Assembly (NCBI RefSeq): GCF_013402815.2
Contig: NZ_CP058601.1
Coordinates: 1,302,001-1,366,000 of the forward strand
Origin: Natrinema halophilum
GTDB taxonomy: Archaea > Halobacteriota > Halobacteria > Halobacteriales > Natrialbaceae
Direction: 5' to 3'
Length of the DNA: 64,000 bases
Positions 10,340-49,604 of this stretch are shown here, one piece after another. Positions within the stretch are counted from its first letter, which is position 1, and the number at the start of each line of letters is the position of its first letter. The notes beneath the pieces were generated by a model. The model was not told where the DNA came from. It ran no database searches and worked only from the letters and a program-made list of their open reading frames with translations. Made by a program: the position numbers and the translations under genes.

Positions 10340-10990
10340 TTACGGCTCCGCCGTTCGACGGACGTTCTTGGCTCGGTCGACGAACGATTGGACCGCGGTG
10401 GCGTCTTTGATGCCGCCGCGTTCTTCGACGCCGCTCGCCACGTCGACGGCGAACGGTCCGACGGTCCGAACGGCGTCACCGACGTTTTCAGGGGTGAGAC
10501 CCCCCGCGAGGATCACCGGCGACTCGAGATCCATAGCGGCCGTCCGGGTCCGATCCCAGTCGTGGGTTCGGCCGGTGCCACCGCCCCCGTCCTCGCTCAC
10601 AGTGTCGACGATGAGGCCGTCGACGAGGTCGTCGTAGGTCGTCGCTGTCGTCGCATCGTCGGCGTCGACAGCGAGCAGGATGTCGACGTCCAGTTTTGCA
10701 CGGAGATACGCGAGGTCTCCGGGTCGGATGCCACCGTGGATCTGGATCGCGTCGGGTTCGATTTCCTCGACTAGTTCGATCGCGTCCCCCGGACCGTCCG
10801 GCATCGTTACGAGTACGCTCGTCACGAACGGCGGCGCGGCCGTCGTGAGCGCCTTCGCCCGTTCGACCGATACCTCTCGCGGCGTGTCGACCGAGACGTC
10901 GCAGATAATACCGACTGCGTCCACGCCCGCGTCGACGGCCGCCTCGAGGTCGGCTTCCCTCGTCATCCCGCAGATCTTCACGCGAGTCAT
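10340..10990 (-). CDS. trpF: phosphoribosylanthranilate isomerase
   Basis: This 216-residue TIM-barrel enzyme catalyses the Amadori rearrangement of phosphoribosylanthranilate to CdRP. The catalytic Cys lies in the opening strand MTRVKICGMTREADL. The catalytic Asp/phosphate regions are visible in DGLIVDTVSEDGGGGTGRTHDW and the closing LAGGLTPENVGDAV with DVASGVEERGG. Its start overlaps the trpD stop by 4 nt, so the two are translationally coupled. Confidence 0.96.
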   Translation of the reverse strand: MTRVKICGMTREADLEAAVDAGVDAVGIICDVSVDTPREVSVERAKALTTAAPPFVTSVLVTMPDGPGDAIELVEEIEPDAIQIHGGIRPGDLAYLRAKLDVDILLAVDADDATTATTYDDLVDGLIVDTVSEDGGGGTGRTHDWDRTRTAAMDLESPVILAGGLTPENVGDAVRTVGPFAVDVASGVEERGGIKDATAVQSFVDRAKNVRRTAEP

Positions 10991-12009
10991 CGTCCCGTTC
11001 CGGCCGGTTTCGGCGTCGCGTCACAGAGTTGCTCGAGTTTCCGTGACGCCGCGCCGGTGTCGATGGCCTCGCGGGCCGCCTCGGCTCCCGCCTCGAGCGA
11101 GTTTGCTTCACCGGCGACGTAGATCGCCGCGCCGGCGTTTGCGAGAATGACGTCCCGTTTCGCACCGGTAACATCGCCGGCGACGATCCCCTGCATATCG
11201 GCCGCGTTCTCCTCGGGAGTACCCCCGGAGATAGCGTCGATATCGTGCTCGTCGAGGCCGATATCGGCCGGTTCGACCGTATACTCCTCGACAGCGGAAC
11301 CGTCGATTTCCGCGGCGACCGTTTCGCCGTGGACGGCGATCTCGTCGGTACCGGCCCCGTGGACGACCATCGCGCGGTCGACGTCCATTCGTGCCAGCGC
11401 ATCCGCGAGCACGGGGACGAGATCAGGATCGTAGACGCCGACGATCTGTGCGTCCGCACCGGCCGGGTTCGTCAGCGGTCCGAGCACGTTGAAGATGGTT
11501 CGCATCCCGAGTTCCTTTCGCGGACCGATGACGGCCTTCATCGCCGGGTGGAACACCGGTGCGAGCATGAACCCGATGCCGTCGTCCTCGATGGCGTCCT
11601 CGACGGCCGGCGGTTCGGCCTCGACGTTGACGCCGACCTCCTCGAGTACGTCCGCACTACCCGACGAGGAGGAGACTGAATAGTTCCCGTGCTTGGCGAT
11701 CGGGATACCGGCACCGGCTGCGACGATCGCGCTCGTCGTCGAAACGTTGATCGTATCGTAATCGTCACCGCCGGTTCCGCACGTATCGACCAGCGGTTCT
11801 CGATCGGGCGATATCGTGCGTGCTGCCGACCGCATGCCCTCCGCGAAGCCGGCGATCTCGGCTTCCGTCTCCCCTTTCGCGCGCAGCGCCGTCAGCAGTG
11901 CGCCGATCTGTGCTTCGGTTGCATCTTCGAAAACGGCCGTCGAAGCTGCTCGAGCGTCCGCTTGCGTGAGATCCGTTCCGTCCGTAACTCGTTCGACGTA
12001 CTCCTTCAT
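10987..12009 (-). CDS. trpD: anthranilate phosphoribosyltransferase
   Basis: This 340-residue enzyme transfers phosphoribose from PRPP to anthranilate. The motifs are the PRPP loop DTCGTGGDDYDTINVST, KHGNYSVSSSSGSADVLE, FMLAPVFHPAMKAVIGPRKELGMRTIFN and VHGAGTDEIA. The frame is open further upstream (to 12186), but ATG 12009 (MKEYVERVTDGTDL) matches the family's N-terminus. It also sits downstream of a TATA element and an inverted repeat. It is the first gene of trpDFEG; the usual companion operon trpCBA is not in this window. Confidence 0.96.
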   Translation of the reverse strand: MKEYVERVTDGTDLTQADARAASTAVFEDATEAQIGALLTALRAKGETEAEIAGFAEGMRSAARTISPDREPLVDTCGTGGDDYDTINVSTTSAIVAAGAGIPIAKHGNYSVSSSSGSADVLEEVGVNVEAEPPAVEDAIEDDGIGFMLAPVFHPAMKAVIGPRKELGMRTIFNVLGPLTNPAGADAQIVGVYDPDLVPVLADALARMDVDRAMVVHGAGTDEIAVHGETVAAEIDGSAVEEYTVEPADIGLDEHDIDAISGGTPEENAADMQGIVAGDVTGAKRDVILANAGAAIYVAGEANSLEAGAEAAREAIDTGAASRKLEQLCDATPKPAGTGR

Positions 12010-12020
12010 TGTGGTCACCA

Positions 12021-12068
12021 ATGTACGTAGTTGTCTTACAATGTCCAAATTCGTACATCCACTTAAGC
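12021..12068 (-). promoter_or_regulatory. trpDFEG promoter with TRP-box-like inverted repeat
   Basis: On the reverse strand a TATA-like CGCTTAAGTGG (centre about 12065) precedes trpD by about 56 nt. The perfect inverted repeat ATGTACG (12021-12027) / CGTACAT (12052-12058) flanks the predicted transcription start, at about -19 to +18. In the methanogen Methanothermobacter, the repressor TrpY binds TGTACA-type TRP boxes; each arm here carries TGTACG/CGTACA. That this is a tryptophan operator in a haloarchaeon is an inference. Confidence 0.5.
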
Positions 12069-12199
12069 GTATCGACCGGGCCCGTGGGGTCGACTCGCGT
12101 ACGGCGGTCGATTCGAAACCTTCAATTGTAGTGGCCGGCAACCAGTGAGTGGAGACAGCGTGGCGCGGGATGTCAGGCTGTGTCACCGCAAGAACGGAC

Positions 12200-12941: not shown

Positions 12942-13427
12942 CTACTCCGTGAGCGTTTCGACGAGGGTTTCGATCTCGAAGTCGTTGAGCGGATTCGGTT
13001 CGTCTTTGACCGTCGTGATGACGAACTTCGAAGAGGTCCGCTCGATCTCGTCGATCGATTCGTAGTCCTCGACGAGCGATTCGACGCTCTCACGGTTGGC
13101 AACGTGCGCGATGACGACGAAGTCTGTGGCGCCCATCGTGAAGTACACCTGATTGACGCCCTCGACGTCGGCGAGTTTCTCACCGACGGTATCGTGGTAC
13201 CCTTCCCCGAACTCGGCCCAGACTTCCGAGATGAGCGTGATCGAGAGCCCGACCTTCTCGAGGTCGATGTCGTAGAGGTCGTTTTCGATGACGCCCGACT
13301 CCCGAAGCTGGTTGAGCCGGTAATGAACCGTCGACTTCGGGATCCCAATCGCCTCTTCGATTTTATCCGGGCTGGCTGTTCCCTCTCTAGCGATCGTAGC
13401 CAAAATCTGAATGTCTTTTTCGTCCAT
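12942..13427 (-). CDS. Lrp/AsnC family transcriptional regulator
   Basis: This protein is about 161 residues. An N-terminal winged helix-turn-helix (DIQILATIAREGTASPDKIEEAIGIPKSTVHYRLNQLRESGVI) is followed by an RAM-like effector domain with GVNQVYFTMGATDFVVIAHV. Such proteins bind amino acids or related metabolites and often control neighbouring transport or catabolic genes. It is the natural regulator candidate for the island to its right. ATG 13427 (MDEKDIQIL) is the usual family start. A GTG at 13451 is also possible, since a TATA-like AATATACAT (about 13476-13484) lies 28 nt before it. Confidence 0.88.
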   Translation of the reverse strand: MDEKDIQILATIAREGTASPDKIEEAIGIPKSTVHYRLNQLRESGVIENDLYDIDLEKVGLSITLISEVWAEFGEGYHDTVGEKLADVEGVNQVYFTMGATDFVVIAHVANRESVESLVEDYESIDEIERTSSKFVITTVKDEPNPLNDFEIETLVETLTE

Positions 13428-13451
13428 GAACGAAGTCTGAATATCATCCAC

Positions 13452-13836: not shown

Positions 13837-14610
13837 TTACGTCGTCCACCCGCCATCTACGACGAGCGTTTCACCAGTGATGAATCCGGCAGCATCACTC
13901 GCTAAGAACAAAACGGCATTCGCAACGTCCACCTCGGTTCCGAGCCGGTCGAGTATCGTTTTCTGACGCTTGACTTCCGCTTTATCTGGATCCGAAAGTT
14001 CGTCCTTCCCCATCCCCGCTTCGATTATTCCCGGTGCGACCGCGTTAGCGCGGATGCCTTCCGAACCGTAGTCAACTGCGACCTGTTTCGTATGATTGAG
14101 GACGGTCGCTTTCGAGGGTGCGTAGGTCGCGTATTCTGCCGACCCTTTCATACCAGCAATACTAGCGACGTTGACGATACATCCTCCTGTTGTGCGAAGG
14201 CTATCGAGACTGAATTTGGTCATAAGCACTGCGCCTCGAGCGTTGACTGCCTGGACCGCATCCCAGTCTTCGACGGAGATCTCTTCGATGGAGCCCAGTC
14301 GATTGATGCCGGCGTTGTTTACGAGAACGTCTATCTCGCCAGATTCGTCCCGAATGTTGGATATCGTCCGTTCGATCTCGCCGGCATCCCGGAGGTCACA
14401 CTGGAAAAACTCGGCCTGGCCCCCCGCTTCCGTTATCCGTTCGTGAGTTGCTGATTCCTCGTCCCGTGGATTCTTCGATAGGTCCACTATCGATACGGCC
14501 GCGTTCAGAGCACCGAATTCGATCGCTATTTTTCGCCCAATACCCGCTGCTGCACCCGTTACAACGACGTGCGTATCCTCGAAATCAACGCCATTCCGTA
14601 GTACTGACAT
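13837..14610 (-). CDS. SDR family NAD(P)-dependent oxidoreductase (first)
   Basis: This 257-residue Rossmann-fold dehydrogenase has the classical SDR signatures. They are TGAAAGIGRKIA for nucleotide binding, DLRDAGEIE, NNAGINRLGSIEE, the catalytic Ser in NVASIAGMKG, Tyr/Lys in YAPSK, and the C-terminal FITGETLVVDGGW. Asp after the second strand (SIVDLSK) suggests NAD+ preference. It lies 58 nt after livF in the same direction, so it probably belongs to the transporter operon and oxidises or reduces the imported compound or a breakdown product. The substrate cannot be deduced. Confidence 0.92.
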   Translation of the reverse strand: MSVLRNGVDFEDTHVVVTGAAAGIGRKIAIEFGALNAAVSIVDLSKNPRDEESATHERITEAGGQAEFFQCDLRDAGEIERTISNIRDESGEIDVLVNNAGINRLGSIEEISVEDWDAVQAVNARGAVLMTKFSLDSLRTTGGCIVNVASIAGMKGSAEYATYAPSKATVLNHTKQVAVDYGSEGIRANAVAPGIIEAGMGKDELSDPDKAEVKRQKTILDRLGTEVDVANAVLFLASDAAGFITGETLVVDGGWTT

Positions 14611-14668
14611 GATGTATTACTGCTGTGGATTTATTGATATCGTTCTCGTCACGTTACTGTAGACGGTC

Positions 14669-15382
14669 TCATAACGTCCGTTCGCCGAGATACATCTCGA
14701 CCAGTTCGTCTTCGTCTTCAAGTTCGCTCGGACGACCGCTGAACTCCAGTTGTCCCTGCTCGAGGAGGAAGACGTGTTCTGCAATATTGAGAACTTCTCT
14801 TACGTTTTGTTCGACAATCACCATGTCTATCCCTTCCTCTTTGAGACGTTCGAGATGAGTGAATATTTCGGTAACCAAATTCGGCGCGAGACCGGCGCTT
14901 GGCTCGTCGAGGAGAAGAAAGTCCGGGTCAGCCATCAGAGCGCGGCCCATAGCTACCATCGCCTGTTCACCGCCGCTCATAGAACCAGCCTGCTGGGAGA
15001 GTCGCTCCTCGACCCGAGGAAAGGTGTCGAAAACGTACTCGTATCGTTCGTCGAGAACGTCGTCGTCATCCGTCAAATAAGCCCCCATTCGGAGGTTCTC
15101 TTTGACGGTCATCTCGGGAAAGACGCTACTTCCCTGTGGCACAGTTACAATCCCTCGCTTGACGATTTCCTGTGAGTCGCAGTCCTGAATTTCCGTGTCG
15201 TTGTGACGGATCGTTCCGCTCCAGCACGAGACCAGACCGTTGATCGTTTTCAGCGTCGTCGACTTTCCGCTGCCGTTCGGTCCGATTATACAATTCACTC
15301 GACCGTCCTCGAACGTGAGGGAGAGGTCGTTCAATACCTGGTTTTCGTCGTAGCCACTGTTGACGTCTTCGAGTTCGATCAT
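14669..15382 (-). CDS. livF: ABC transporter ATP-binding protein, LivF type
   Basis: This 237-residue cytoplasmic ATPase belongs to a branched-chain amino acid (HAAT) family importer. It shows Walker A IIGPNGSGKSTTLK, Q-loop VPQGSSVFPEMTVKENL, the signature SMSGGEQAMVAMGRAL, Walker B FLLLDEPSAGLAPNLV and the switch His region replaced by IVEQNV. That IVEQNV pattern is characteristic of LivF. The length is typical. It overlaps livG by 4 nt (ATGA). Confidence 0.95.
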   Translation of the reverse strand: MIELEDVNSGYDENQVLNDLSLTFEDGRVNCIIGPNGSGKSTTLKTINGLVSCWSGTIRHNDTEIQDCDSQEIVKRGIVTVPQGSSVFPEMTVKENLRMGAYLTDDDDVLDERYEYVFDTFPRVEERLSQQAGSMSGGEQAMVAMGRALMADPDFLLLDEPSAGLAPNLVTEIFTHLERLKEEGIDMVIVEQNVREVLNIAEHVFLLEQGQLEFSGRPSELEDEDELVEMYLGERTL

Positions 15383-16089
15383 TGTCCACCTAAGTACGCG
15401 CTCCGCACCTGTTCGTTATCACGGACCTCTTCGAACGGCCCATCGGCGATTTTTTGCCCGTTGTGCATGACGACAACGCGATCGCAGAGGTCGGCTATGA
15501 TCGACATGTCGTGTTCGATGAGCAAAAACGTATGACCGTCGTCGTGGAGGTCGCGAATATAATCCATGATGTCGTCCATCAATGCCGGGTTCACACCAGC
15601 AGCAGGCTCATCCAGCAAAATGATTTCGGGATCGAGCATCAGTGCACGACCAATCTCGAGCAATTTCTTTTGCCCGCCACTCAGATCTTTCCCGCGGCTG
15701 TCAGCTTCGTGATCGAGTTCGATATCGTCGAGAATCCGTTCCGCACGTGACTCCTTTTCGACCCGTGAGAGATCAGGAGTATTTGCAACCATCATATTTT
15801 CTCTCACGGTCATGGTTCCGAACGGTTTTGGTCTCTGGAACGTTCGAACGATGCCGTGAGATGCTCGCTTTGCAGTGCCAAAGGACGTGATATCGGAGCC
15901 GGTCAACCGAACGGTCCCTCCGTCAATCGAATAGAACCCCGTTACGAGATTGAACGTGGTAGTCTTTCCACTCCCGTTGGGGCCGATCAATCCGACTATT
16001 TCGTTTTCTTCAACCGTCAAATCGAGGTGATCGACGGCGGTCAATCCACCGAACGATTTCGTTAAATCAGTTGTTTCTAGAACAGTCAT
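15379..16089 (-). CDS. livG: ABC transporter ATP-binding protein, LivG type
   Basis: This 236-residue second ATPase of the same importer has Walker A LIGPNGSGKTTTFN, then RTFQRPKPFGTMTVRENM, the signature DLSGGQKKLLEIGRAL, Walker B IILLDEPAAGVNPALM and switch His in LLIEHDMSII. The VTGFY..GTVRLTGSDI stretch after the P-loop is LivG-like. Its start overlaps the livM stop by 4 nt. Confidence 0.95.
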   Translation of the reverse strand: MTVLETTDLTKSFGGLTAVDHLDLTVEENEIVGLIGPNGSGKTTTFNLVTGFYSIDGGTVRLTGSDITSFGTAKRASHGIVRTFQRPKPFGTMTVRENMMVANTPDLSRVEKESRAERILDDIELDHEADSRGKDLSGGQKKLLEIGRALMLDPEIILLDEPAAGVNPALMDDIMDYIRDLHDDGHTFLLIEHDMSIIADLCDRVVVMHNGQKIADGPFEEVRDNEQVRSAYLGGQ

Positions 16090-17126
16090 TGTTCTTTTGA
16101 GGAATGTTCGTCTTGAGCCGATTGGCTTCCGAACGCGGACCGTAGCTTACCGGCTTGATCACGGAGAAGGTCCTGTTGTACAGAACTCCCGGCGAGCCCG
16201 CCAGGGAAAAACATGATAGTAAACATCAACAGGAGCCCCCAAAGCAGCAGGCGTATTTCACCGAAGGACCGGAAGAATTCGGAGAATCCGAGGACTGCGA
16301 TGACACCGACGACCGGACCGAGGCTCGTCCCGATACCGCCGATGACGGCCATCGCCATGAACTCGATCATCATTTCTATCGCCATCATCGATGGCGAGAA
16401 AATCCGAATGTTGAATGCGTGTATTCCTCCCGCCGTCCCAGCCATCGCGGAACTAAGAACGAACGCGTACACTTTATACCGATCTGTGTTGTTTCCGAGC
16501 ATCTTCGCTGCATCTTCCTCTTCTCTGATCGCCCGACCGATCAATCCGAACCGCGACCGAAGTAACACATAGAGAACGGCCAGATTAAGCAAAACGATGG
16601 CGAGAGCGAAATAATAGAGCGGGATCATGTTCCCATCGAAGAGTGCGGGGTGTTCGATGTACCCCATGGCACCGCCGGTTATGTCGTCGAGGACGTACAC
16701 TAACAGGTAGAGGATTTCTGCGTACGCTAACGTGGCCATCGCCACGTACGAGCCGCCGAGGCGCAGTATCATCGGTGCGATGATGAGACTTGCGATGGCC
16801 GCGCCACCGCCTCCGATAACGATCGTGGCGACCGGATGAATACCGTAGGTCCCTGCCAAGATGGCCGCTATATAGCCGCCGACGCCGAATAATGCAGCGT
16901 GAGCGAAGCTAAAGACGCCGAAGTAGCCGGCGATTAGATTCCAACTTGCAACTACGAGAACGAATACGACCATCTGGAGGACGATTTCGAACAGGTATCC
17001 GCCGAAAATCGCCGGGGCGAGCAGGGCAATCGCTAATACGCTGAGGGCGACGTATCCTTTTGGTGTCTTGGCATCCTCGACGATTTTCTGTCGGATCGAA
17101 TTGATCGAGTGTGAAAGAGTCATCAT
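16086..17126 (-). CDS. livM: ABC transporter permease, LivM type
   Basis: This is a 346-residue inner-membrane permease with about ten hydrophobic segments. The LivM hallmark is present: NLIAGYFGVFSFAHAALFGVGGYIAA, followed by GGSYVAMATLAYAEI and the coupling region RAIREEEDAAKMLGNNTDRYKVYAFVLS with AGTAGGIHA. The hydrophilic C-terminus (SQSAQDEHSSKEQ) is typical. It overlaps livH by 4 nt. Codon use here is clearly more AT-rich than in the trp region, consistent with transferred DNA. Confidence 0.94.
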   Translation of the reverse strand: MMTLSHSINSIRQKIVEDAKTPKGYVALSVLAIALLAPAIFGGYLFEIVLQMVVFVLVVASWNLIAGYFGVFSFAHAALFGVGGYIAAILAGTYGIHPVATIVIGGGGAAIASLIIAPMILRLGGSYVAMATLAYAEILYLLVYVLDDITGGAMGYIEHPALFDGNMIPLYYFALAIVLLNLAVLYVLLRSRFGLIGRAIREEEDAAKMLGNNTDRYKVYAFVLSSAMAGTAGGIHAFNIRIFSPSMMAIEMMIEFMAMAVIGGIGTSLGPVVGVIAVLGFSEFFRSFGEIRLLLWGLLLMFTIMFFPGGLAGSSVQQDLLRDQAGKLRSAFGSQSAQDEHSSKEQ

Positions 17127-17995
17127 TCGATCACCTCTGCGAACCCATTTGGTAAGAATATCAATACGAAAATCATCGCACCGAACATAAAGATCAGCGT
17201 CGCCTGGCTAGAGAACCACGTAAGCGACAAACTTCGGAAGACACCGGTCGCGAGTGCGGCAAGTAGCGTCCCGCGAACGCTTCCGAGTCCACCGATGATT
17301 ACGACAATAAATGCGAGGAGGAATGGCTGCCAGCCGACAGCCGGATACACGTTATAGACTGGTGCAATGAGCATTCCGGAGAGACCGGCCAGGGCGGCAC
17401 CCAATCCAAAGGTAATCGAGTAGATTCTATCCGTATTGACTCCCATCAGTTTCGCCGTGTTCGCGTCTTGAGATACGGCTCGAATGGCGAATCCGATTTT
17501 CGTGAACCGAATGAGGGTGAACAACAACAGGATAGTGATTAGAGCCACTACGAACAGGTAAACACGGGTCTTTCCGAGCGTAATCGACCCGATTTCCCAG
17601 ACCCCTTCGAATAGGGATGGGAAGGCCAGCTGTGAACTCCCGAGAAGAACACTCACACCATGTTCCAGGGTTATTGCAAGGCCAAACGTGCCGAGGATGA
17701 GCGTTATTTCTGCATCCTCGCGTTCTTTCAGTCGCTGAATGAGGACTTGATCTGTAATAACTCCCAGAACGAAAACGCCAACTGTCGCCAAAATTGCTGC
17801 CAGAATGAGACTCTCAGTGGCTTGGATCGTGTAGAGACCGATATACCCCCCAATCATCAACATCGACCCGTGAGCAAAGTTCAACACGTCCATTACACCC
17901 CAGATCAACGTCAAACCGACTGCAATCAATGCTATCTGACCCCCAAATAGGATTCCGTTTGCAAGTTGCTGTAATATTAAATCCAAACTTACCAT
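17123..17995 (-). CDS. livH: ABC transporter permease, LivH type
   Basis: This is a 290-residue membrane permease. LivH features are IALIAVGLTLIWGVMDVLNFAHGSMLMIGGY near the N-terminus and the coupling helix FAIRAVSQDANTAKLMGVNTDRIYSITFGLG followed by GLSGMLIAPVYNV. The GGLGSVRGTLLAALATGV loop is also LivH-like. It is the first gene of the operon livH-M-G-F-SDR. The periplasmic-type binding protein is not adjacent; it lies 6 kb away at 23574. Confidence 0.94.
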   Translation of the reverse strand: MVSLDLILQQLANGILFGGQIALIAVGLTLIWGVMDVLNFAHGSMLMIGGYIGLYTIQATESLILAAILATVGVFVLGVITDQVLIQRLKEREDAEITLILGTFGLAITLEHGVSVLLGSSQLAFPSLFEGVWEIGSITLGKTRVYLFVVALITILLLFTLIRFTKIGFAIRAVSQDANTAKLMGVNTDRIYSITFGLGAALAGLSGMLIAPVYNVYPAVGWQPFLLAFIVVIIGGLGSVRGTLLAALATGVFRSLSLTWFSSQATLIFMFGAMIFVLIFLPNGFAEVIE

Positions 17996-18297
17996 CGTAT
18001 CCTCTACCCTGTCCCAACTGCTCTTAACATTTTTGATCGTCTATCAACAATCCACACCCTTATTGGGTAGAAATCCAAAATATAAAAATGCTTTACACTG
18101 GTCGTGAGCTGGGCGTTGCACGAAGTGACCGCGTATCGGCCGTACGCTTAGCCACTGGGAGAACCCATCCTGATGGTTGGTTCTTCTCGACGGTAAAACC
18201 AACTCCGATCCCGAAACCAGTATACGAGTCGCCTGGCGCGTATTCTATTCCGGGTTGGGAACGTTTCATTCAGCGGTGGACGATTCGAACGTCTGTC
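17996..18297. other. AT-rich intergenic region
   Basis: About 300 bases between livH and the 3' end of the deacetylase gene. It holds the livH promoter and no convincing gene. Confidence 0.5.
18022..18030 (-). promoter_or_regulatory. TATA element of the livHMGF operon
   Basis: ATGTTAAGA on the reverse strand is centred 31 nt before the livH ATG, giving a predicted leader of only a few nucleotides. An AT-rich stretch at 18078-18092 (reverse TTTTTATATTTT) could be a second, more distal element. Confidence 0.5.
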
Positions 18298-19209
18298 TCA
18301 CCCGTGACGTTCATACCAGTGCGTTGCGAGGTCTTCTCCCGTCGTCACCCAGGTATCACCGGTCTGTAACACTCGCTGAAGCAGTTCCTCGAGCGCATCC
18401 ATTCGGCCAGCACGGCCGATGAGCTGGGGATGCATCGTTAACATGAAACACCGACCTCGTTTGTGAAGGGCATCGAATTCCCGTTCCCAGGAATCGAACA
18501 CGGGGCCCGTCGAACTGATACCACTTTGGTAGGACAACTGTGGATACATGTGGAATCCGAAGAACGGCCAGTCGTCGAGCGACCATTCGAATGGGATCTC
18601 GAGGAGTCGGTCGTCGCCGAGATCGTGAAAGTACGGAACGTCATTGTCGAGAAAGCTCGATTCGTATTGGACTCCCTGCTCGGCGAGGATTTCGAGCGTG
18701 TTGTTGCTGAGATCGGCCGCTGGACTGCGGTAACCGACCGGTGTCGTCCCTACGAGGTCGTCGAAGATGTCGAGTGACCGCTTTACGTCCGCCTCTTCTT
18801 CTTCGCGAGTCGAATTTGCAGGATTGACGTGGCGATATCCGTGGAGGCCGATCTCGTGGCCCGCATCGTGGATCTTTTGGACCGTTTCCGGCCAGTCTTC
18901 GGCGACCTTACCCGGGATAAAGAACGTACAGTTGAGATCGTACCTATCAAATAATTCGATTATTCGAGGTACCGCGACGTTTGGCCCAAAATTACCGCGC
19001 GTCTTCACAGGGGGTTTATCCCATTCCTCGTCCCCTTCGATCCGGAGATTCCAGATCTCATCTGCGTCGAGGTCGAACGTAAACACGGCAGCCGATTGGT
19101 AGTCCGCTGGCCACATGGAACTATCTGGCATATCTCGCCGTGGAGTTGCCACGATATTATTAGTTGTCATCTGTTCCAAAGACGCGCCTTTCAGTTGTAT
19201 CAGGTTCAT
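18298..19209 (-). CDS. polysaccharide deacetylase (NodB/CE4) family hydrolase
   Basis: This 303-residue protein has a NodB fold: the metal-site start VFTFDLDADEIW, FFIPGKVAEDWPETVQKIHDAGHEIGLHGYRHVN (the His-x3-His metal pair), the RSPAADLSNNTLEIL motif and C-terminal MLTMHPQLIGRAGRM with the catalytic His. There is no signal peptide, so it acts in the cytoplasm. That fits the PuuE-like branch acting on small ring amides or N-acyl compounds better than cell-wall chitin deacetylases (inference). The start at 19209 is supported by a TATA element 29 nt upstream; MTTNNI at 19170 is the alternative. Confidence 0.85.
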   Translation of the reverse strand: MNLIQLKGASLEQMTTNNIVATPRRDMPDSSMWPADYQSAAVFTFDLDADEIWNLRIEGDEEWDKPPVKTRGNFGPNVAVPRIIELFDRYDLNCTFFIPGKVAEDWPETVQKIHDAGHEIGLHGYRHVNPANSTREEEEADVKRSLDIFDDLVGTTPVGYRSPAADLSNNTLEILAEQGVQYESSFLDNDVPYFHDLGDDRLLEIPFEWSLDDWPFFGFHMYPQLSYQSGISSTGPVFDSWEREFDALHKRGRCFMLTMHPQLIGRAGRMDALEELLQRVLQTGDTWVTTGEDLATHWYERHG

Positions 19210-19591
19210 ACAAAGTATCGAACTTCAGATGATGTATTATATGAGGGGTGTGAGAGACGCGGCGATCCTTCCAGGGAGCAATGTGAACGGCGTCCATCGC
19301 ACGGACTGACCCAGTAGCCGGCATTGGTGTGGGATGAGAGCGCTGACCAGTCACTGACTCGCGCGGAACCAGGATCGATTTCCTATTTCTCGCAGGCTGG
19401 GTCCAGTACAGCAGGTGTGGAAACCGATTTACTTCACCACGCGGGGCGCTCGCGTCCGGATCGATGGAACGTCTGGAATATTGAACTAAGTTCGATTAGA
19501 GTCCGATCCTAACGAATGCCAGGTATCTTTATCGCCGGCAAATTTGAACACGAAACAACTATTTTGTGGGGACTCAATAACGTTCTGATGT
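19210..19591. other. divergent promoter region of the catabolic island
   Basis: About 380 bases separate the divergent deacetylase and M20 genes. It carries the deacetylase TATA near 19238 and, on the + strand, ACTATTTTGTGG (19558-19569), centred about 29 nt before the M20 start. No gene is apparent between them. Any shared operator for the island would be expected here. Confidence 0.5.
19232..19243 (-). promoter_or_regulatory. TATA element of the deacetylase gene
   Basis: CATATAATACAT on the reverse strand is centred 29 nt before ATG 19209. It predicts a leaderless message and supports that start over the inner ATG at 19170. Confidence 0.6.
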
Positions 19592-20914
19592 ATGAGTACC
19601 ACCTCTCGACAAGATATCTGTACCCACATCGAACAGAACCAGGATCGAATGCTCGACTTTCTCTCTGAACTAATTTCAGCTCAGTCGCTACCAGGAGAAG
19701 AGCAACCAGCACAGGAGGTACTGAAGGACAAGTTGAGCGAGTTCGGCGGGTCTATCGACGTCTGGGAACCCGACGCTGACGACCTTCGAGACCATCCGGG
19801 CTTCTTCGAAACGACGCCGTATCAGGAGCACGGCTACGAGGGACGAGAAAACGTGGCAACTACGATAGACGGTAACGGAGATGGTCCGTCTCTCGCGATG
19901 AGTGGTCACGTCGACGTCGTAAATCCCGATCCGATCGATGCCTGGGAACACGATCCGTGGAATCCGGACATAGACGACGGGCGCATGTACGGGCGCGGAA
20001 CCATGGACATGAAGGGGGGAATTGCTGCGTTCATCCATGCGTACGAAACGTTACGCGAGTTAGATATCGAATTGGCTGGCGATCTGACCCTCCAAACGAC
20101 GATCGAAGAGGAAGCGGGGGGAGTTGGCGGAGTTCTATCAGCCCTCGAGCGGGGGTATCAGCCCGATGCAGCGATTATTCCCGAACCGTCCGGCGTTCCG
20201 AAAGTCGGGGTCGCGAGTGCCGGCGTCTTGTACTTCCGCGTGACCGTTCCGGGGAAACCGGCCCACGCCGCCTACAAATTCCTCGGCGTCGATGCAGTCG
20301 ATAAAGCGTTTCAAATCCACCAGGCACTCGAGAACTACAACGACGAACTCAACGAACGGATCGGAGACTATCAGCCAGCGGTCAACCAGTATGCCGAAGC
20401 AGAAGGGAGTAGTGCGAATCTGACGATTACCGATATCGAGGTGCCTGGTTCGTGGACGTCCACTGTCCCAGGGAAAGCCATCATGGAGTTCCGGATGGGG
20501 TGGCCGCCGAGTGCGGGAATGAATCGAAACGACGTCCGGGAAGAAATCACTGGAGTGATCGACTCAGTGGTGAGAGAAGACGACTGGCTCGTCGACAATC
20601 AACCGGAGATCGAATGGTTTGGGTGGAGCACGGACCCACACGAAATCGACTTCCGGAGCGACTTCTACGAGTTAGTCTGTGAAAACACGACGGCTGTTAC
20701 TGGCGGCGACATCCAGAGACGCGGCGGGTTAGGTGGGAACGACGAGCGATTTTACAATCGCTATTACGATATCCCCTGCCCGAGCGTCGGACCAAACGGC
20801 GGCAATGGTCACGGGGCCGACGAGTACGTCGAAATCGACTCCTTGATCGAAACAGCTCAAATTCATGCCCTTACCATGGTCAACTGGTGTGGAACCGTCG
20901 GGGAACTAGAATAA
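19592..20914 (+). CDS. M20 family metallo-amidohydrolase/peptidase
   Basis: This is a 440-residue di-zinc hydrolase of the ArgE/DapE/CPG2 family. Metal and catalytic motifs in order are SGHVDVVN, YGRGTMDMKGG (bridging Asp), the Glu pair in TTIEEEAGGVGG, AIIPEPSG, the dimerisation-domain His in GKPAHAAYKFLGV, and the last metal His in GNGHGADEYVE. There is no signal peptide. Members remove N-acyl, N-carbamoyl or C-terminal amino acid groups. The position beside an amino-acid-type importer and a deacetylase suggests it hydrolyses the imported amide or its product. Codons are more AT-rich than in flanking housekeeping genes. Confidence 0.9.
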   Translation: MSTTSRQDICTHIEQNQDRMLDFLSELISAQSLPGEEQPAQEVLKDKLSEFGGSIDVWEPDADDLRDHPGFFETTPYQEHGYEGRENVATTIDGNGDGPSLAMSGHVDVVNPDPIDAWEHDPWNPDIDDGRMYGRGTMDMKGGIAAFIHAYETLRELDIELAGDLTLQTTIEEEAGGVGGVLSALERGYQPDAAIIPEPSGVPKVGVASAGVLYFRVTVPGKPAHAAYKFLGVDAVDKAFQIHQALENYNDELNERIGDYQPAVNQYAEAEGSSANLTITDIEVPGSWTSTVPGKAIMEFRMGWPPSAGMNRNDVREEITGVIDSVVREDDWLVDNQPEIEWFGWSTDPHEIDFRSDFYELVCENTTAVTGGDIQRRGGLGGNDERFYNRYYDIPCPSVGPNGGNGHGADEYVEIDSLIETAQIHALTMVNWCGTVGELE

Positions 20915-21157
20915 CTGCCAGTAACCGACGGTCGTTGGGAAACGATTTTTTCAGAGGGGAGATCCAACGCTGCTGATGGGTCGATAACGATCACCGACAG
21001 CGCCGAAGGCAACCTGTTGCTATGATACTGGTTCGTTCAGAACCGAGTTGGGAATCGGAAATAAAATAACCCATATCGTGACTCAGACGAAGTGAGATAA
21101 AATGCACCATTATCGACCTAATTCGAATTGAATCCGAATAGTTTTTCCTATAGGGAA
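20915..21157. other. short AT-rich spacer
   Basis: About 240 bases between the M20 and GNAT genes. Several A/T-rich strings (21058-21070, 21094-21103) could promote the GNAT gene. I see no gene. Confidence 0.4.
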
Positions 21158-21619
21158 ATGAATGCAGATATTATGGATGCAATTGATATCGAAGAACTGA
21201 CTACGGAACCCGAATGGCGCAACGTGTTTCCTCTCATTAACCAGCTTCGTGACCATTTGACTGAAGAAACATATCTCGCGTATTTAGACGACATGCGCGA
21301 GGAAGGGTATCGACTGTTTGGGTTGTTCGAAGACGGGGAAGCCCTCGCAGTAGCCGGGGTAGCGATTCGAACGAATTTCTACAACGGGACCCACTTGTTC
21401 GTATACGACCTCGTGACGCGAGCCGATCGGCGGTCGGAAGGTCACGGCACTACCTTGATGGAGTTTCTGGAGGACTGGGCGCGTGATAACGATTGTGAGA
21501 GTATCACGCTGGAGTCGGGCCTCTGGCGCGAGAATGCTCACCGCTTTTACGAAGACGGCCTCGACATGGACCGCTACTGTTATACGTTCAAGAAGGAGCT
21601 GGATTCGAAAGCTGACTGA
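21158..21619 (+). CDS. GNAT family N-acetyltransferase
   Basis: This protein is about 153 residues. The acetyl-CoA pyrophosphate loop is visible as VTRADRRSEGHGTTLMEFLEDWARDND, preceded by the strand HLFVYDLV and followed by ITLESGLWRENAHRFYEDGLDMDRYCYTFKKEL, a standard GNAT C-terminus. ATG 21158 (MNADIMD) was preferred over the TTG at 21128; MDAIDIEEL at 21173 is also possible. It lies alone on the + strand after the M20 gene. It might acylate a toxic amine released by that hydrolase, but this is conjecture. Confidence 0.88.
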   Translation: MNADIMDAIDIEELTTEPEWRNVFPLINQLRDHLTEETYLAYLDDMREEGYRLFGLFEDGEALAVAGVAIRTNFYNGTHLFVYDLVTRADRRSEGHGTTLMEFLEDWARDNDCESITLESGLWRENAHRFYEDGLDMDRYCYTFKKELDSKAD

Positions 21620-21726
21620 CTGTATTCGGTTTTGTACGGCCACCAATCGAAGGATCGTGAAAAAGTGTCGTCAGCCGTCGGGAACCCCTTCTTCGGGCTT
21701 TGCACTCCCGACAAGAGAGGGCATCG

Positions 21727-22710
21727 CTATCTCAGTTCGGGGATGATCTCGTCGCCAAACAATTCGACTGCGTTCTCGATCTTCGCTGCGGAAAGACCAG
21801 GTAGCGTCATCCGTGCCACGAATCGATAGTCTTCGCCGAGTCGGTCCCGGCGTCGGTGTAGTCGGTCCGTGACCTCGGAGACGGAACCGACGAGACATTC
21901 GTCTCGCAGGTCGTCTTCCTGTTCTTCGGGAAGTTCGTACGGTTGGGGTTCACCGGTCGCCCATTCGATATACTGGCGCTTGATGTACCAGATGTTCTGT
22001 TTTACGTCGTCCCACGGATCTTCGTCTTCCGCGACGAACGTATATCTCCACTCGGCTAACTCGGTCGGATCAGTCTCGGTCTCTGCGAGCAATTCCTGGC
22101 GACGCTCGAGTTCGTCGAGCGGCGTCGGAGTCGCGAAGTATCCGTCGGCCATCGTCGCTGCACGTTTTACCGCTGCATCGACAGTGCCTCCGATCCAGAT
22201 TGGAATCCGTGAATCGGGTTTTGGATACACGCTGACGTCGCTGTAGTCGTATAACCGCCCGTCGTGCGAGAACGTGTCCTGATTCCACGCCTTTCGAGCG
22301 ATTTCGATTCTGTCTTTGGTATGAGCAACGCGCTTTCGTTTGTCTATATCGAACGCTTCGAATTCTTCGTCGGTCCAACCGATCGCCAGGCCGAGTTCGT
22401 ACCGTCCCGCGGTGAGTCGATCGATTACTGCACTGCTCTCGGCGAGTCGAATCGGATCGTAGAACGGTGCAAGTGCAATACCGGTTCCGATCGTCATCGA
22501 CGACGTCCGCGCACCGAGGGCCGACGCGAACGATTGTACTGCAGGGATATAACTATCGTCCAGGAAGTGATGTTCGCTCACCCAGGCTTTCTCGAACCCT
22601 GCCTGGTCTGCTACTTCGCCCAACTCTACCATCGCCTGGTATCGTTCGGTTGGGGATGTATCCGACTCCGGGGGAACTTGACCCGTAAAGAGGCCGATAT
22701 CAATGTTCAT
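21727..22710 (-). CDS. LLM class (luciferase-like) oxidoreductase, probably F420-dependent
   Basis: This 327-residue TIM-barrel oxidoreductase opens MNIDIGLFTGQVPP and continues with GFEKAWVSEHHFLDD, typical of luciferase-like proteins. It has MTIGTGIALAPFYDPIRLAESSAVIDRLTAGRYELGLAIGW, then PIWIGGTVDAAVKRAATMADGYF and a substrate-gate tail with DECLVGSVSEVTDRL. Archaeal members usually use coenzyme F420, though bacterial relatives are FMN monooxygenases that open heterocycles. It starts 21 nt after the second SDR, so binding protein, SDR and LLM form one operon. Confidence 0.9.
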   Translation of the reverse strand: MNIDIGLFTGQVPPESDTSPTERYQAMVELGEVADQAGFEKAWVSEHHFLDDSYIPAVQSFASALGARTSSMTIGTGIALAPFYDPIRLAESSAVIDRLTAGRYELGLAIGWTDEEFEAFDIDKRKRVAHTKDRIEIARKAWNQDTFSHDGRLYDYSDVSVYPKPDSRIPIWIGGTVDAAVKRAATMADGYFATPTPLDELERRQELLAETETDPTELAEWRYTFVAEDEDPWDDVKQNIWYIKRQYIEWATGEPQPYELPEEQEDDLRDECLVGSVSEVTDRLHRRRDRLGEDYRFVARMTLPGLSAAKIENAVELFGDEIIPELR

Positions 22711-22731
22711 TGGTTTCTCCTTGATTGTCTG

Positions 22732-23511
22732 TTACCACGACGACCAACCGCCATCTACCGAAATTACCTGCCCTGTTATAAACGAACTCGCATCGCTGGC
22801 GAGGAATACGATTAGCCGAGCCACGTCTTCGGGTTCACCTAGACGCGGTATCAGGGTTTTTGTGGTAGCCGTATCGTGGTTGTTCCAACGGCCTGTATCC
22901 TCGTCGTCACGCCAGACGCTTGCGTTCATCTCGGTTTTGATAAACCCTGGAGCAACAGCGTTGATCTGGACGTTATCGGGAGAGTAGTCCACGGCCATTT
23001 CTCGAGTGAGTGATGCTATCGCTCCTTTTGCCGCACTGTAGTCTGCCGCCGAACCGAACCCACGTATGCCCGCAATCGAACTGACGTTGACGATACTGCC
23101 ACCGTTGGCTTCGGCCATAGACGGAAGGAGCGACCGACACACGTTGTAGGTTCCTTCGACGTGCACCTCGAACGACCGGCGCCACGTATCGGCGTCGATT
23201 TCGTCGATTCGGCCGTTACCAGCGATGCCGGCGTTGTTGACGACGATCGACGGGCGACCATACGACTCCGCAGTGTCGATTGCAGCAGCTACGTCTTCCG
23301 GATCGCTCACGTCGCCGATTACCAGTTCGCCATCGGTTACGAGGTCGTCGAACTGGTCGTCGTCGGTCGATTCGTCAGTGATGTCGAGTCCAATTACGGT
23401 CACCCCGTTGTCGGAGAGCGTCGATGCAACCGTGCGGCCGATTCCGGCGTTCGCTCCCGTGACAAATGCAATTCTTCCGTCGAGATCTGGATATGTCGGA
23501 GATGTCGTCAT
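22732..23511 (-). CDS. SDR family NAD(P)-dependent oxidoreductase (second)
   Basis: This 259-residue Rossmann dehydrogenase has TGANAGIGRTVAS, GLDITDESTD (acidic residue after strand 2, NAD-type), GDVSDPEDVAA, NNAGIAGNGRIDEI, NVSSIAGIRG, the catalytic YSAAK, PGFIKTEMN and FITGQVISVDGGW. It is about one-third identical by eye to the SDR at 13837, so the island carries two related dehydrogenases at its two ends. It lies between the binding protein (62 nt spacing) and the LLM gene. Confidence 0.92.
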   Translation of the reverse strand: MTTSPTYPDLDGRIAFVTGANAGIGRTVASTLSDNGVTVIGLDITDESTDDDQFDDLVTDGELVIGDVSDPEDVAAAIDTAESYGRPSIVVNNAGIAGNGRIDEIDADTWRRSFEVHVEGTYNVCRSLLPSMAEANGGSIVNVSSIAGIRGFGSAADYSAAKGAIASLTREMAVDYSPDNVQINAVAPGFIKTEMNASVWRDDEDTGRWNNHDTATTKTLIPRLGEPEDVARLIVFLASDASSFITGQVISVDGGWSSW

Positions 23512-23573
23512 TGTTTCACGTGTTATCTGGGATAGCCAACCGGGAGTGAACCGGCGGCAATTACCCTACCCGC

Positions 23574-24851
23574 TCAGTATAGTCCTTCGTCGATCTCTGC
23601 TTCAGCATGCTCGTCCGGCCATACGAGGTGATTGGACATGTCACGGACCTGGTTTCCGAGAGGAGGAATGCCGCTATCAGGACCCCATTCACTCTGGTGG
23701 TTTTCTTCCTGGAATCGGAACGTCCCTGCGGTCCCCTCGTATTCGAGATTCAAGACGGTTTCTTCCCAGGTGCTGACGTCGAGGTCTTCGACTCCACCGA
23801 TCTCTTTGAGCGCTTTCGCGACGATCAGGAGATTATCGTACGCGAGGGATGCGTTGGTACCGGGGAACGAACTGTCGTACGCATCGTTCCAGGCCGACCG
23901 CAACGTTTCAGACTGTGATGGGAGGACACCGATATTCGTAAGCCAGAGCACGCCGTTGGAAGTCGACCCACCGGTTTCGAGAGTGGTTGGGTTCGACGGC
24001 GTCCAGGTCATCAGGAGATGCGTATCTTCGAATCCAACGTCACCGAAGTCGGAGATAAAGTTGCCCGCGGCCGACGGGTTCGATTGGGCACACAAAATAA
24101 TATCAGGGTCGTTGCTTTCGATTCGTGTAAGCAGGGACTGGAAGTCCGTTTCGTTGTATTCGTGGGAATCTTTCGATAGTACGTCCCAGTTTCCGTCCGA
24201 CTCTTGAAGATTGGATTCCACGGAGTCTACGATCGGATTGCCGTACGAGGTGTTCTCGCCGACCAGCGCGATTTGTGGGGAATCGAACGGGAAGTATCCG
24301 ACCTCATTTTCTTGAAGATACTGCAGCCAGGCCGCCCACCCAACACCATATGCCTCGTGAGGTGGAGCCATCTTAAAGGAATGCTTATAATTATTCTCCT
24401 TGACCCGCGTATTAATGGTCCCACCTACCGAGTTCGAAATCATCTGCGGGACTTCCTCTTGTGCGGCTAACTCCATGACGGCAACGGAGACGTCCGTATG
24501 GAACCCGCCGGTGAGGACATCGATACTTTCGGTCTGTAGCAGCGAACTAACCGCATTTCGACCGGCCGCTGGCTCGGACTCGGTGTCAGCGATGTGAAGG
24601 TTTACGTCCTGGCCGTCGATTCCACCGTCGCTGTTAATCTTTTCTTTCGCGAGCTCGGCGCCGCGTTTCATTTCTTCGCCGACGGATGCAGACGGGCCGC
24701 TCATCGGACCGGAAAAAGCGAAATCGATCGATCCATCGCTGCTACCGCCTCCACCTATGTTAAGACAGCCAGCCAGGGAAAGAGCCGTGACGCTCCCACC
24801 GACTCCCTGCAACACGTTACGCCGTCGAATTCTGGAGTTATCTAATGTCAC
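23574..24851 (-). CDS. ABC transporter substrate-binding lipoprotein (LivK/HAAT type)
   Basis: This 425-residue extracellular binding protein has a Tat-like leader (RIRRRNVLQGVGGSVTALSLAGC) ending in an archaeal lipobox at the Cys. The mature type I periplasmic-binding fold starts IDFAFSGPMSGPSASVGEEMKRGAELAKE, as in LivK/AmiC-type receptors. YGNPIVDSVE and DPDIILCAQSNPSAAGNFISDF lie in the domain cores. GTG 24851 is taken as start because a TATA element sits 28 nt upstream. It is probably the receptor for LivHMGF, although it is transcribed from a separate operon. Ligand unknown. Confidence 0.92.
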   Translation of the reverse strand: MTLDNSRIRRRNVLQGVGGSVTALSLAGCLNIGGGGSSDGSIDFAFSGPMSGPSASVGEEMKRGAELAKEKINSDGGIDGQDVNLHIADTESEPAAGRNAVSSLLQTESIDVLTGGFHTDVSVAVMELAAQEEVPQMISNSVGGTINTRVKENNYKHSFKMAPPHEAYGVGWAAWLQYLQENEVGYFPFDSPQIALVGENTSYGNPIVDSVESNLQESDGNWDVLSKDSHEYNETDFQSLLTRIESNDPDIILCAQSNPSAAGNFISDFGDVGFEDTHLLMTWTPSNPTTLETGGSTSNGVLWLTNIGVLPSQSETLRSAWNDAYDSSFPGTNASLAYDNLLIVAKALKEIGGVEDLDVSTWEETVLNLEYEGTAGTFRFQEENHQSEWGPDSGIPPLGNQVRDMSNHLVWPDEHAEAEIDEGLY

Positions 24852-25510: not shown

Positions 25511-25554
25511 GTGCGAGGAGAAAGCCCCGCCCTTTCGGGCGGAGTGGATGTCAA
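25511..25554 (+). mobile_element. isolated right-end relic of an IS1341/IS605-type element
   Basis: GTGCGAGGAGAAAGCCCCGC, then the hairpin CCGCCC-TTTC-GGGCGG (25527-25542), then a GGATGTCAA-type terminus look like the right end of haloarchaeal tnpB-only elements. No tnpB remains to the left. The terminal TCAA overlaps the stop codon (TCA, 25551-25553) of the convergent SWIM gene, as if the element supplied or abutted that stop. Confidence 0.55.
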
Positions 25555-25952
25555 AGTAATTCGCGCACGTCTGAATACCACATATCGTGATAGTCGACGT
25601 GTCCGATTCGGCGAGCGATGGCGACAGCCAGCGAATGCCAGCAGCGATCGGTCGGGTCGTCGGCATCGAGATTGTATTCGCTGTCTTTGCAGGTACAACC
25701 GCCGTCCTCAACGATGTATTCGTCGTCGTAGCCGACGACGATCGTGAAATCTCGATAGGCCTTGACGCGATTTTCAGCCACCGCCTCGATAGCCTGAACC
25801 CCGCGGTCGCCGTGAATCTTCGATATGTCATCAACGATCGCTGGCGTCAGCTCGCCAGCTTCCTCGAGGGCGGCTTGCCATCGTTCGACGGGGTTGGCCT
25901 CCGACACGACCGGAACTGTGTACCGAACTGTAAAATCGGTTTGGTTGTCCAT
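25551..25952 (-). CDS. SWIM zinc-finger protein
   Basis: This 133-residue acidic protein has a SWIM-type zinc motif (GCTCKDSEYNLDADDPTDRC followed by WHSLAVAIARR), that is Cys-x-Cys followed by Cys-x-His. SWIM domains mediate DNA or protein binding; the role here is unknown. ATG 25952 (MDNQTDFTVRYTVPVV) was chosen over a GTG at 25973. Its stop codon coincides with the end of an IS right-end relic, so the native C-terminus could have been altered. Confidence 0.8.
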   Translation of the reverse strand: MDNQTDFTVRYTVPVVSEANPVERWQAALEEAGELTPAIVDDISKIHGDRGVQAIEAVAENRVKAYRDFTIVVGYDDEYIVEDGGCTCKDSEYNLDADDPTDRCWHSLAVAIARRIGHVDYHDMWYSDVRELL

Positions 25953-26138
25953 CGGAACCTGGATTCCGGTCACGTCTCACGCGGCTGTGCCCCTCGAACG
26001 AACAGACTCCGCTGGTTCGAAGCAACTGCGTCTGGCAGTCGGCTGTTGCGACGATGACTGGGGACCGCGGAAACGGGTCACACCCGTTTCCCTTCGTGAG
26101 ACCACATCGCTTTTCGCCCGGTACCGACGAGACCAGAT

Positions 26139-27254
26139 ATGCGCGTCACCGAGGGCGGGGTCGAACTCGAGGTCCCCGGCGAACAAACGGAGGGGATCGA
26201 AGAAGCGGTGTTCTACAATCCGCGACAGGAACTGAACCGAGATCTGACGATCGCGACGCTGCGAGCGTATCGACGGCGCGAGGAGCGTGCAACATCGTAT
26301 CTCGATGCGATGTCGGCAAGCGGCGTCCGCGGCGTCCGGGCCGCCGCCGACGACTGGGAGGTCACCTGCTGTGACATCGACGAGGAGGCCATTTCACTCG
26401 CGCGGGAGAACGTGAGACGAAACGGCTGCGAGGCGACGTTCGAACATCGGAACGTAAACGCCCTGATGCACGAGTCTACGTTCGACGTGATCGACCTCGA
26501 TCCCTATGGGACGCCGATGCCGTTCGCAGACGCTGCATTCGCCAACTGTCGGGACCTCGTCTGCGTGACCGCGACCGACACAGCACCCCTATGCGGTGCA
26601 CACTTCAACAGCGGCGTTCGCTCGTATTCTGCAGTTCCTCGAAATACGGATTACCACGCCGAGATGGGGGTTCGTGTCCTCATCTCCGCGCTCGCACGCA
26701 GCGCCGCCCGTTTCGACGTCGGCGTCGAACCAATCCTCACGCACGCGACCAGTCACTACGTCCGGACGTATCTCGAACTCGAGCACAAGGCCACGGCAGC
26801 AGACGCCGCGATCGACGAATTAGGCCACGTCTACCACTGTGAAGACTGCCTCTACCGGGAGAACGACCGAGGCCTGATCGCCGATCCGCTCGAAACGTGT
26901 CCCCACTGTGGCGGCGCGCGACTCCTCACTGCCGGCCCGGTCTGGCTCGGACCGATACAGGACCCGACGTTCGTCGCTGCCGTCCGCGAGGCGATTCCCG
27001 ACGCGTTCGGGACTGCAGAAAAAGCCCGGAATCTCTGTGACACGCTCGAATCGGAACTCGACGAGCCGACCCACTACGACCAGCACAAACTTTGCCGAAA
27101 CTGGGGGCTGCCTGCGAACGCGATGGATGACTTTCTGGCCGACCTGCGTACAGCAGGCCACTCGGCTTCGCGAGCGCACTACGGGGGAACGACGTTCAAG
27201 ACGGACGCGAACCTCGGCGAGATCCGCGAGGCGACCGAAGGAAACCTGAACTAA
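26139..27254 (+). CDS. trm1: tRNA (guanine(26)-N(2))-dimethyltransferase Trm1
   Basis: This 371-residue SAM-dependent enzyme makes m2,2G26 in tRNA. Visible are the N-terminal [24 protein letters not shown] motif [15 protein letters not shown], the acidic strand CDIDEEAI, the catalytic DLDPYGTP (the DPxG/P signature), [10 protein letters not shown] and the C-terminal zinc-binding [11 protein letters not shown] / [10 protein letters not shown] pair. [21 protein letters not shown] is a typical C-domain segment. Length is normal for archaeal Trm1. The downstream zinc-ribbon gene converges 5 nt away. Confidence 0.97.
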
Positions 27255-48905: not shown

Positions 48906-49346
48906 ATGGTAAGGAAAACTGTCGTTGCCGTTGACGGGTCTCCGCAGGCGTCGGCCGCGCTCGCATACGCGCTCGAGGAGTTTCCGGAATCGTCGATCAC
49001 GGCGCTGCACGTCGTTCGGCTTCCGGAGGGGTACTGGACGTCGTTCACCGATTCGGAGACGGAGTTGCCGGGGTACGAGAACGCACAGGAATCCGCCAGG
49101 GAACTCCTGGAATCGGCCGAACAGACGGCCGCGGAGAGCGACCGGGAACTCGAGACGGTCGTCGAAACGGGGAAGCCTGCTCGAGAGATCGTTGATTACG
49201 CCGTCGAAAACGGGTTCGACCAGATCGTTATCGGAAGTCACGGTCGGACGGGGGTCGACCGAGTTCTGCTCGGGAGCGTATCCGAACAGGTCGTTCGTCG
49301 CGCACCGATGACTGTGGCAGTTGTTCACGAACAAGCCGACCGATAG
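48906..49346 (+). CDS. universal stress protein (UspA domain)
   Basis: This 146-residue single-domain protein starts MVRKTVVAVDGSPQASAALAYALEEF (Asp of the nucleotide site). The ATP-binding signature is IVIGSHGRTGVDRVLLGSVSEQVVRRAPMTVAVVH, that is the G-2x-G-9x-G(S) pattern. It is expected to bind ATP as a dimer and act in stress adaptation. The neighbours give no specific clue. Confidence 0.95.
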   Translation: MVRKTVVAVDGSPQASAALAYALEEFPESSITALHVVRLPEGYWTSFTDSETELPGYENAQESARELLESAEQTAAESDRELETVVETGKPAREIVDYAVENGFDQIVIGSHGRTGVDRVLLGSVSEQVVRRAPMTVAVVHEQADR

Positions 49347-49604
49347 CGGGGACGGAGGGCGTCATAGACCAGCTCGCATCGCCTCATCGGCTATTCGACG
49401 AGCGGTGGGTACGGGGGAAACCGGCCGCTCAGTACTGAGAGATAAGTAAACATAGTAGTATGTATGAATCAAACTAGACTATAATAATCCTATTTACTAC
49501 CAGATATATTAACCGAAATCGGACAATTGTGTGATAATCACCTATAATAGTGTGCTCTGTCTCGGGTTCACATGAATGCCATTAACTGGCAGGCAAGGAG
49601 CGAT
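49347..49604. other. AT-rich spacer
   Basis: About 260 bases. 49440-49560 is strikingly AT-rich, with many TATA-like strings (ATAATAATCC, TATATTAACC). It probably carries the promoter of the following HTH gene. No other gene is seen. Confidence 0.5.

Follow-up and report, generated by a model that had tools for sequence, protein, structure and literature searches.

A mobile import-and-catabolism island of Natrinema halophilum and a proposed cyclic-imide hydrolase of the NodB fold

The stretch of Natrinema halophilum DNA analysed here (contig NZ_CP058601.1, positions 1,302,001 to 1,366,000; 64,000 nucleotides, called the window) carries an island in which two minus-strand operons of a complete HAAT/Liv-type ABC importer enclose a NodB-fold hydrolase, an M20 amidohydrolase and a GNAT acetyltransferase (Table 1). 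The permease operon (LivH-LivM-LivG-LivF-SDR1, 17995 to 13837) ends with a short-chain dehydrogenase (SDR), and the binding-protein operon (LivJ-SDR2-LLM, 24851 to 21727) adds a second SDR and a luciferase-like (LLM) oxidoreductase. Because this set recurs clustered in distant genera, the island is a mobile catabolic module rather than a chance neighbourhood. Its general function is probably the catabolism of an amide or nitrogen-ring compound. A narrower scheme was built by analogy, in which an imported imide, or a lactam oxidised to an imide, would be opened by NodB and the half-amide cleaved by M20; we regard it as having about an even chance of being right.

Gene content and recurrence of the island

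All ten island genes and the adjacent Lrp gene were confirmed in the open reading frames, and their families agreed with Pfam and NCBIfam scans. A preliminary description of this DNA had named the full importer, its two same-facing operons with SDR1, SDR2 and LLM, and the NodB, M20 and GNAT genes between them, and this layout was upheld. The subunit set (binding protein, two permeases, two ATPases) is that of the LivJHMGF branched-chain amino-acid importer. However, the subunits score below the NCBIfam cut-offs of the branched-chain models (LivH, 139.7 bits against 379; LivM, 107 against 366; LivJ, 51.6 against 477), and the importer genes are co-directional with catabolic genes. The cut-offs of the urea transporter models were not reached either. 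LivJ begins with a twin-arginine (RR) signal and a lipobox, and its homologues in related islands are 42-44% identical. When LivJ was aligned to solved relatives, the residues at the ligand loops of amino-acid binders differed, an alignment too weak to name a ligand.

NodB orthologues were surveyed in 391 Halobacteria genomes, with 69% identity or more taken as close. Close orthologues were found in the window genome and seven others, and M20 adjoins NodB divergently in 8/8 sampled genomes with a close NodB. A plasmid of Natronosalvus rutilus (G278) carries LivHMGF, LivJ, SDR1, SDR2, M20, NodB, LLM and GNAT, together with HyuA/HyuB, a HyuC-type hydrolase, an aminotransferase and a nitrilase; a Haladaptatus halobius plasmid has nearly the same set. 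Two further genomes, G125 and G070, carry Lrp, LivHMGF, a DAO-type FAD enzyme, HyuA/HyuB, SDR1, LivJ, M20, NodB and an aminotransferase. In these two and in N. rutilus the top match of SDR1 lies within the matching island (52-55%), and the top match of SDR2 in N. rutilus is likewise the island copy (61%, versus 39% for the runner-up). LLM homologues at 60-61% occur only in the Natronosalvus and Haladaptatus islands; at the threshold used, LLM was recovered in one other sampled genome only, within its island. GNAT homologues (49-56%) were found in the Natronosalvus island and five related Liv islands. Gene order is shuffled between genomes, and the islands are accordingly not recent duplicates of a single block. 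Nearly the complete set has clustered homologues in Natronosalvus and Haladaptatus, and the greater part of it in G125 and G070. This recurrence, which the preliminary description had proposed as a check, holds for most or all genes. It supports the earlier view that a self-contained unit imports and breaks down an amide or nitrogen-ring compound, and also that this unit was moved horizontally.

A search with LivJ recovered a second haloarchaeal island family (loci L108, L109, L110, L111, L112, L113 and L114), in which AS amidase and HyuC-type genes replace NodB and the SDRs. LivJHMGF, whole or in part, was found with GNAT, an AS amidase and a class III aminotransferase in five genomes (G323, G312, G162, G061 and G017), most of which add M20, Lrp or a HyuC-type gene; NodB is absent in all five. 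Looser versions occur in G356 and G257. The second family indicates that importer, M20 and GNAT form a shared chassis, with ring-opening enzymes that vary.

Relatives were also found beyond the Haloarchaea. Thorarchaeotal contigs carry M20, NodB and an SDR, on one of them (L067) head to tail as M20-NodB-SDR, and three actinobacterial metagenome-assembled genomes combine NodB, two SDRs, LLM, a Liv importer and HyuA/HyuB (30-41% identity to the window for NodB, SDR and LLM; only 22-25% for LivJ). On bacterial plasmids, NodB is accompanied by SDRs or importers and by an amide hydrolase from one of several unrelated families: an AS amidase (Paracoccus, Variovorax, Rhizobium, Agrobacterium), an isoaspartyl peptidase/asparaginase (Alloyangia, Sagittula), a gamma-glutamyltransferase (Acuticoccus, Agrobacterium, Microvirga) or M20 (Antarctobacter). 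An old-yellow-type enzyme is additionally present near NodB in Sulfitobacter and Nocardia. Of about 114 genes located no more than three genes from NodB, 14 encode SDRs, versus 2 of 129 control genes (p 0.001). An enzyme that hydrolyses amide or peptide bonds is present in 15 of 19 records, with p 0.013 when counted by gene. Both counts were made by eye, against a small control.

NodB and the proposed imide route

The true start of NodB is probably near 19131, because orthologues begin there in the alignment, and no signal peptide was seen by eye. The structural model (mean pLDDT 85.6) was nearest to 3rxz (Z 36.3), HpPgdA (3qbu, Z 33.0 over 260 residues) and PuuE (Z 31.4), with ArnD lower (Z 21.0) and classical deacetylases below 21. 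The metal motifs FDxD and HGYxH are retained, and F21, D22, D24, H99 and H103 are invariant in 17 relatives; the fold together with the FDxD and HxxxH metal residues places NodB in the HpPgdA subgroup. The preliminary description had instead likened NodB to the allantoinase PuuE, which shares the cytoplasmic NodB fold and acts on a small nitrogen-ring substrate. That analogy was not sustained. NodB scored 107.0 bits against a cut-off of 424.6 for the PuuE model TIGR03212, its HGYRH motif keeps the second metal histidine where PuuE has HGYRW, and PuuE sequences were set apart in the tree with support 100/100. The window NodB falls within a haloarchaeal clade of 14 (support 99/97).

A parallel is found in fungal nicotinate breakdown. 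In the hxn core, the flavin oxidoreductase HxnT reduces the ring, the SDR HxnW oxidises a hydroxylactam to an imide, and the HpPgdA-like NodB-fold imidase HxnM and the amide hydrolase HxnN follow. The four enzymes act in series on a piperidine-dione ring, and many fungi have hxnM and hxnN in a cluster (PMC9304392, PMC8478523). Aspergillus HxnM is classed as CE4_HpPgdA_like, with HpPgdA as its closest structure, and its assignment to the cyclic imide 3-hydroxypiperidine-2,6-dione was based on the metabolites of mutants (PMC9304392, PMC8478523). The island parallels this order with different enzymes: LLM stands in the place of HxnT, an old-yellow enzyme, and M20 in that of HxnN, an AS amidase, and an ABC importer is added. 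The island showed no nicotinate hydroxylase. A cyclic imide hydrolase of P. putida (AAY98498, EC 3.5.2.16), with the same proposed reaction class, is given as an HxnM relative in PMC8478523.

Members of the clade that is sister to the window NodB (48-53% identity) are encoded inside or just after haloarchaeal schizokinen-type iuc siderophore clusters (L085:9917-10813; also L041, L042, L043, L045 and L046), and in Halomicrobium the NodB gene lies 55 bases after IucC. Schizokinen is the predicted product of haloarchaeal iuc clusters, and an imide derivative has been described (cited in PMC7407949). Because schizokinen has a known imide form, the sister-clade NodB may serve the siderophore cycle by opening this imide. 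Since the fold of NodB is nearest to 3rxz and HpPgdA, HxnM is HpPgdA-like and the sister clade sits in siderophore clusters, these lines point towards a cyclic imide as the substrate class of the window NodB, a reading with about an even chance. The SDRs and the amide hydrolases of unrelated families beside NodB relatives also count in its favour.

The accompanying enzymes were examined in the same way. M20 scored 269.6 bits to TIGR01910 (ArgE/DapE family deacylase; cut-off 217.6), and its 25 best model matches were all ArgE/DapE-related or other M20 families, with no HyuC/AllC (TIGR01879-type) model among them. The N-carbamoyl route of the preliminary description fits poorly with this assignment, the HyuC-type gene being present in related islands and not here. 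By analogy, a half-amidase role is proposed for M20. Both SDRs carry the TGxxxGIG and Y-x-x-x-K motifs and an Asp closing the second strand. An Asp at this position favours NAD(H). The LLM model, of modest confidence, was nearest to RslO1, to an Agrobacterium monooxygenase and to luciferases, with the F420 enzyme Mer lower, and the score to the F420-dependent model TIGR03619 was 145.7 bits against a cut-off of 166.9. LLM contains an EHHF motif, which occurs in luciferases. No flavin reductase was found in the island. Homology of LLM to RutA was weak and ranked below many other LLM families; the RutA-type ring opening suggested earlier is thus not favoured, the model resembling flavin mononucleotide (FMN) monooxygenases in general.

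In the scheme that we propose, the gene set with its recurrence, the protein families and the active-site motifs are observed, and the imide substrate class, the half-amidase role of M20, the order of steps, the LLM reaction and the regulation are inferred. LivJ and LivHMGF would import a small polar amide-like ring compound. The FMN-type LLM and the two NAD-type SDRs would act on the imported lactam or heterocycle by hydroxylation or reduction, with oxidation of a hydroxylactam to give the imide. NodB would work as a metal-dependent hydrolase of cyclic imides, of the same kind as HpPgdA and HxnM, and would open the five- or six-membered imide to a half-amide, M20 would cleave this to a dicarboxylate and ammonia or an amine, and the Lrp regulator would control the island.

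Several observations weigh against this scheme. HpPgdA, for which a small-molecule substrate is argued, was inactive on every compound tried, including allantoin, N-acetyl polyamines and N-acetyl dipeptides; in the passages of its paper that were covered, no simple cyclic imide was found among these compounds. Substrates are not known for any protein of the window NodB clade, 3rxz has not been characterised, and the kinship of the window NodB with the P. putida imidase and HxnM is indirect. SDR2 and LLM were absent from the fetched neighbourhoods in G125 and G070 and are therefore not strictly required. Four Halorubrum-group genomes have the NodB-M20 pair only, without the importer, and the window is without the HyuA/HyuB pair and aminotransferase of the fullest related islands. 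Moreover, the hand-tallied enrichment of hydrolases near NodB is weaker than that of SDRs. A literature search on imidase with half-amide or polysaccharide deacetylase gave nothing direct.

Alternative readings of the island

Caprolactamase-like HyuA/HyuB, a HyuC-type zinc hydrolase and a class III aminotransferase in related islands bring to mind hydantoin and caprolactam systems. In an extension of the preliminary scheme, NodB or another enzyme could open a hydantoin or lactam ring, after which M20 would release an N-carbamoyl or amino acid for transamination and oxidation. We consider this route unlikely, because none of the HyuA/HyuB, HyuC-type and aminotransferase genes is present in the window island, M20 is of the ArgE/DapE type, and motif and tree separate NodB from PuuE. 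Hidden partners elsewhere in the genome were also sought and rejected: nothing came to light but a HyuA with 44% identity and, at 65%, a relative of the island-type aminotransferase (G000:C1:2043082-2044449), both unlinked. The scavenging of an N-acyl amine or modified peptide is held to be similarly improbable. NodB and M20 would then be two deacylases (deacetylase or deformylase) acting on the imported compound, with GNAT handling the freed amine and the SDRs and LLM degrading the side chain. The NodB fold is classically that of a de-N-acetylase, M20 enzymes of the ArgE/DapE type are deacylases, GNAT is conserved in six other islands, and importers of the oligopeptide and polyamine type, a typing that relies in part on gene layout, accompany the bacterial relatives. 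However, NodB belongs to the small-cavity subgroup near HpPgdA and PuuE (Z 31-36) and not to the CE4 deacetylases (21 or less), and HpPgdA cleaved neither N-acetyl polyamines nor N-acetyl dipeptides.

It could also be supposed that a branched-chain amino-acid importer stands beside chance passenger genes at a tRNA-adjacent rearrangement point. HAAT importers are common, and the two loci that border the island are separated by tens of kilobases or more in the congeners that were compared. The same genes are nevertheless clustered in other genera in rearranged order, which largely refutes a chance assembly, and the clustered SDR copies are the best matches in their genomes. We regard this reading as very improbable.

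Chromosomal setting and origin

The Lrp gene had been placed at the left edge of the island. It is present, but it lies outside 13837-24851 and is part of the chromosomal tRNA-Val/trpD locus, being 80% identical and in the same place in the congener G392. There a class III aminotransferase gene comes after Lrp and takes the place that the island has in the window (L133:2859-4807), and in G028 and G397 the trpD-tRNA-Val junction is present without Lrp. Lrp homologues (54-74%) adjoin Liv islands in six other genomes. Lrp is a probable regulator of the island and ancestral neighbour of tRNA-Val/trpD.

The flanking genes trpD (10987-12186) and trm1 (26139-27254) are 14 kb apart here; in most congeners with both on one contig the distance is about 30-200 kb, and in one it is 1.6 Mb, indicating that a rearrangement accompanied the island. 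A simple insertion between otherwise adjacent genes was ruled out, since in congeners a long distance separates trpD from trm1 or the two are unlinked. A search of the window for a piece of tRNA-Val duplicated at the right edge, which could mark an attachment site, found none. At this edge, a SWIM-type zinc-finger gene (25551-25973, family by eye) adjoins trm1, an adjacency kept in congeners.

The GC content is 53.8% in the island versus 60.9% in the remainder of the window, and third-position GC is 0.56-0.65 in the island versus 0.72-0.79 in flanking genes, in line with the AT-richer codon use reported earlier. A second GC dip (0.544) was seen at about 49000-51000, outside the island. The patchy distribution, the low GC and the plasmid copies in other genera indicate that the island was horizontally transferred.

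Table 1. Genes of the island and the adjacent regulator, with window positions
Feature	Position	Strand	Basis
Lrp/AsnC-type regulator	12942..13451	-	Pfam HTH_24 and AsnC_trans_reg
SDR1, NAD(H)-type short-chain dehydrogenase, last gene of permease operon	13837..14610	-	Pfam adh_short_C2
LivF-type ATPase	14669..15382	-	Pfam ABC_tran; 61-69% homologues in related islands
LivG-type ATPase	15379..16089	-	Open reading frame and homology; 59-64% homologues in related islands
LivM-type permease	16086..17126	-	Pfam BPD_transp_2
LivH-type permease	17123..17995	-	Pfam BPD_transp_2
NodB-fold cytoplasmic hydrolase, proposed cyclic-imide hydrolase	18298..19209	-	Pfam Polysacc_deac_1, fold matches, metal motifs
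M20 amidohydrolase, ArgE/DapE type, proposed half-amidase	19592..20914	+	TIGR01910; divergent from NodB
GNAT acetyltransferase	21128..21619	+	Pfam Acetyltransf_1
Luciferase-like (LLM) flavin oxidoreductase, proposed FMN-type monooxygenase	21727..22710	-	Pfam Bac_luciferase
SDR2, NAD(H)-type short-chain dehydrogenase	22732..23511	-	NCBIfam SDR models
LivJ-type solute-binding Tat lipoprotein	23574..24851	-	Pfam Peripla_BP_6

The authors of the fungal pathway stated that several of its steps are without a prokaryotic equivalent (PMC9304392, PMC8478523). We tentatively suggest, as a possibility that we still doubt, that a prokaryotic counterpart of the imide-forming and imide-opening half of this pathway exists in Haloarchaea, Asgard archaea and bacteria, in which a mobile NodB-imidase and SDR core would be joined by varied importers, flavin enzymes and mutually unrelated half-amidases for different nitrogen rings. 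If the imide assignment is true, equivalents of the SDR, imidase and amidase steps would be widespread in archaea and bacteria, and many 'polysaccharide deacetylase' annotations would denote small-molecule imidases. Haloarchaeal schizokinen clusters would likewise gain a candidate enzyme for reopening the imide form of the siderophore.

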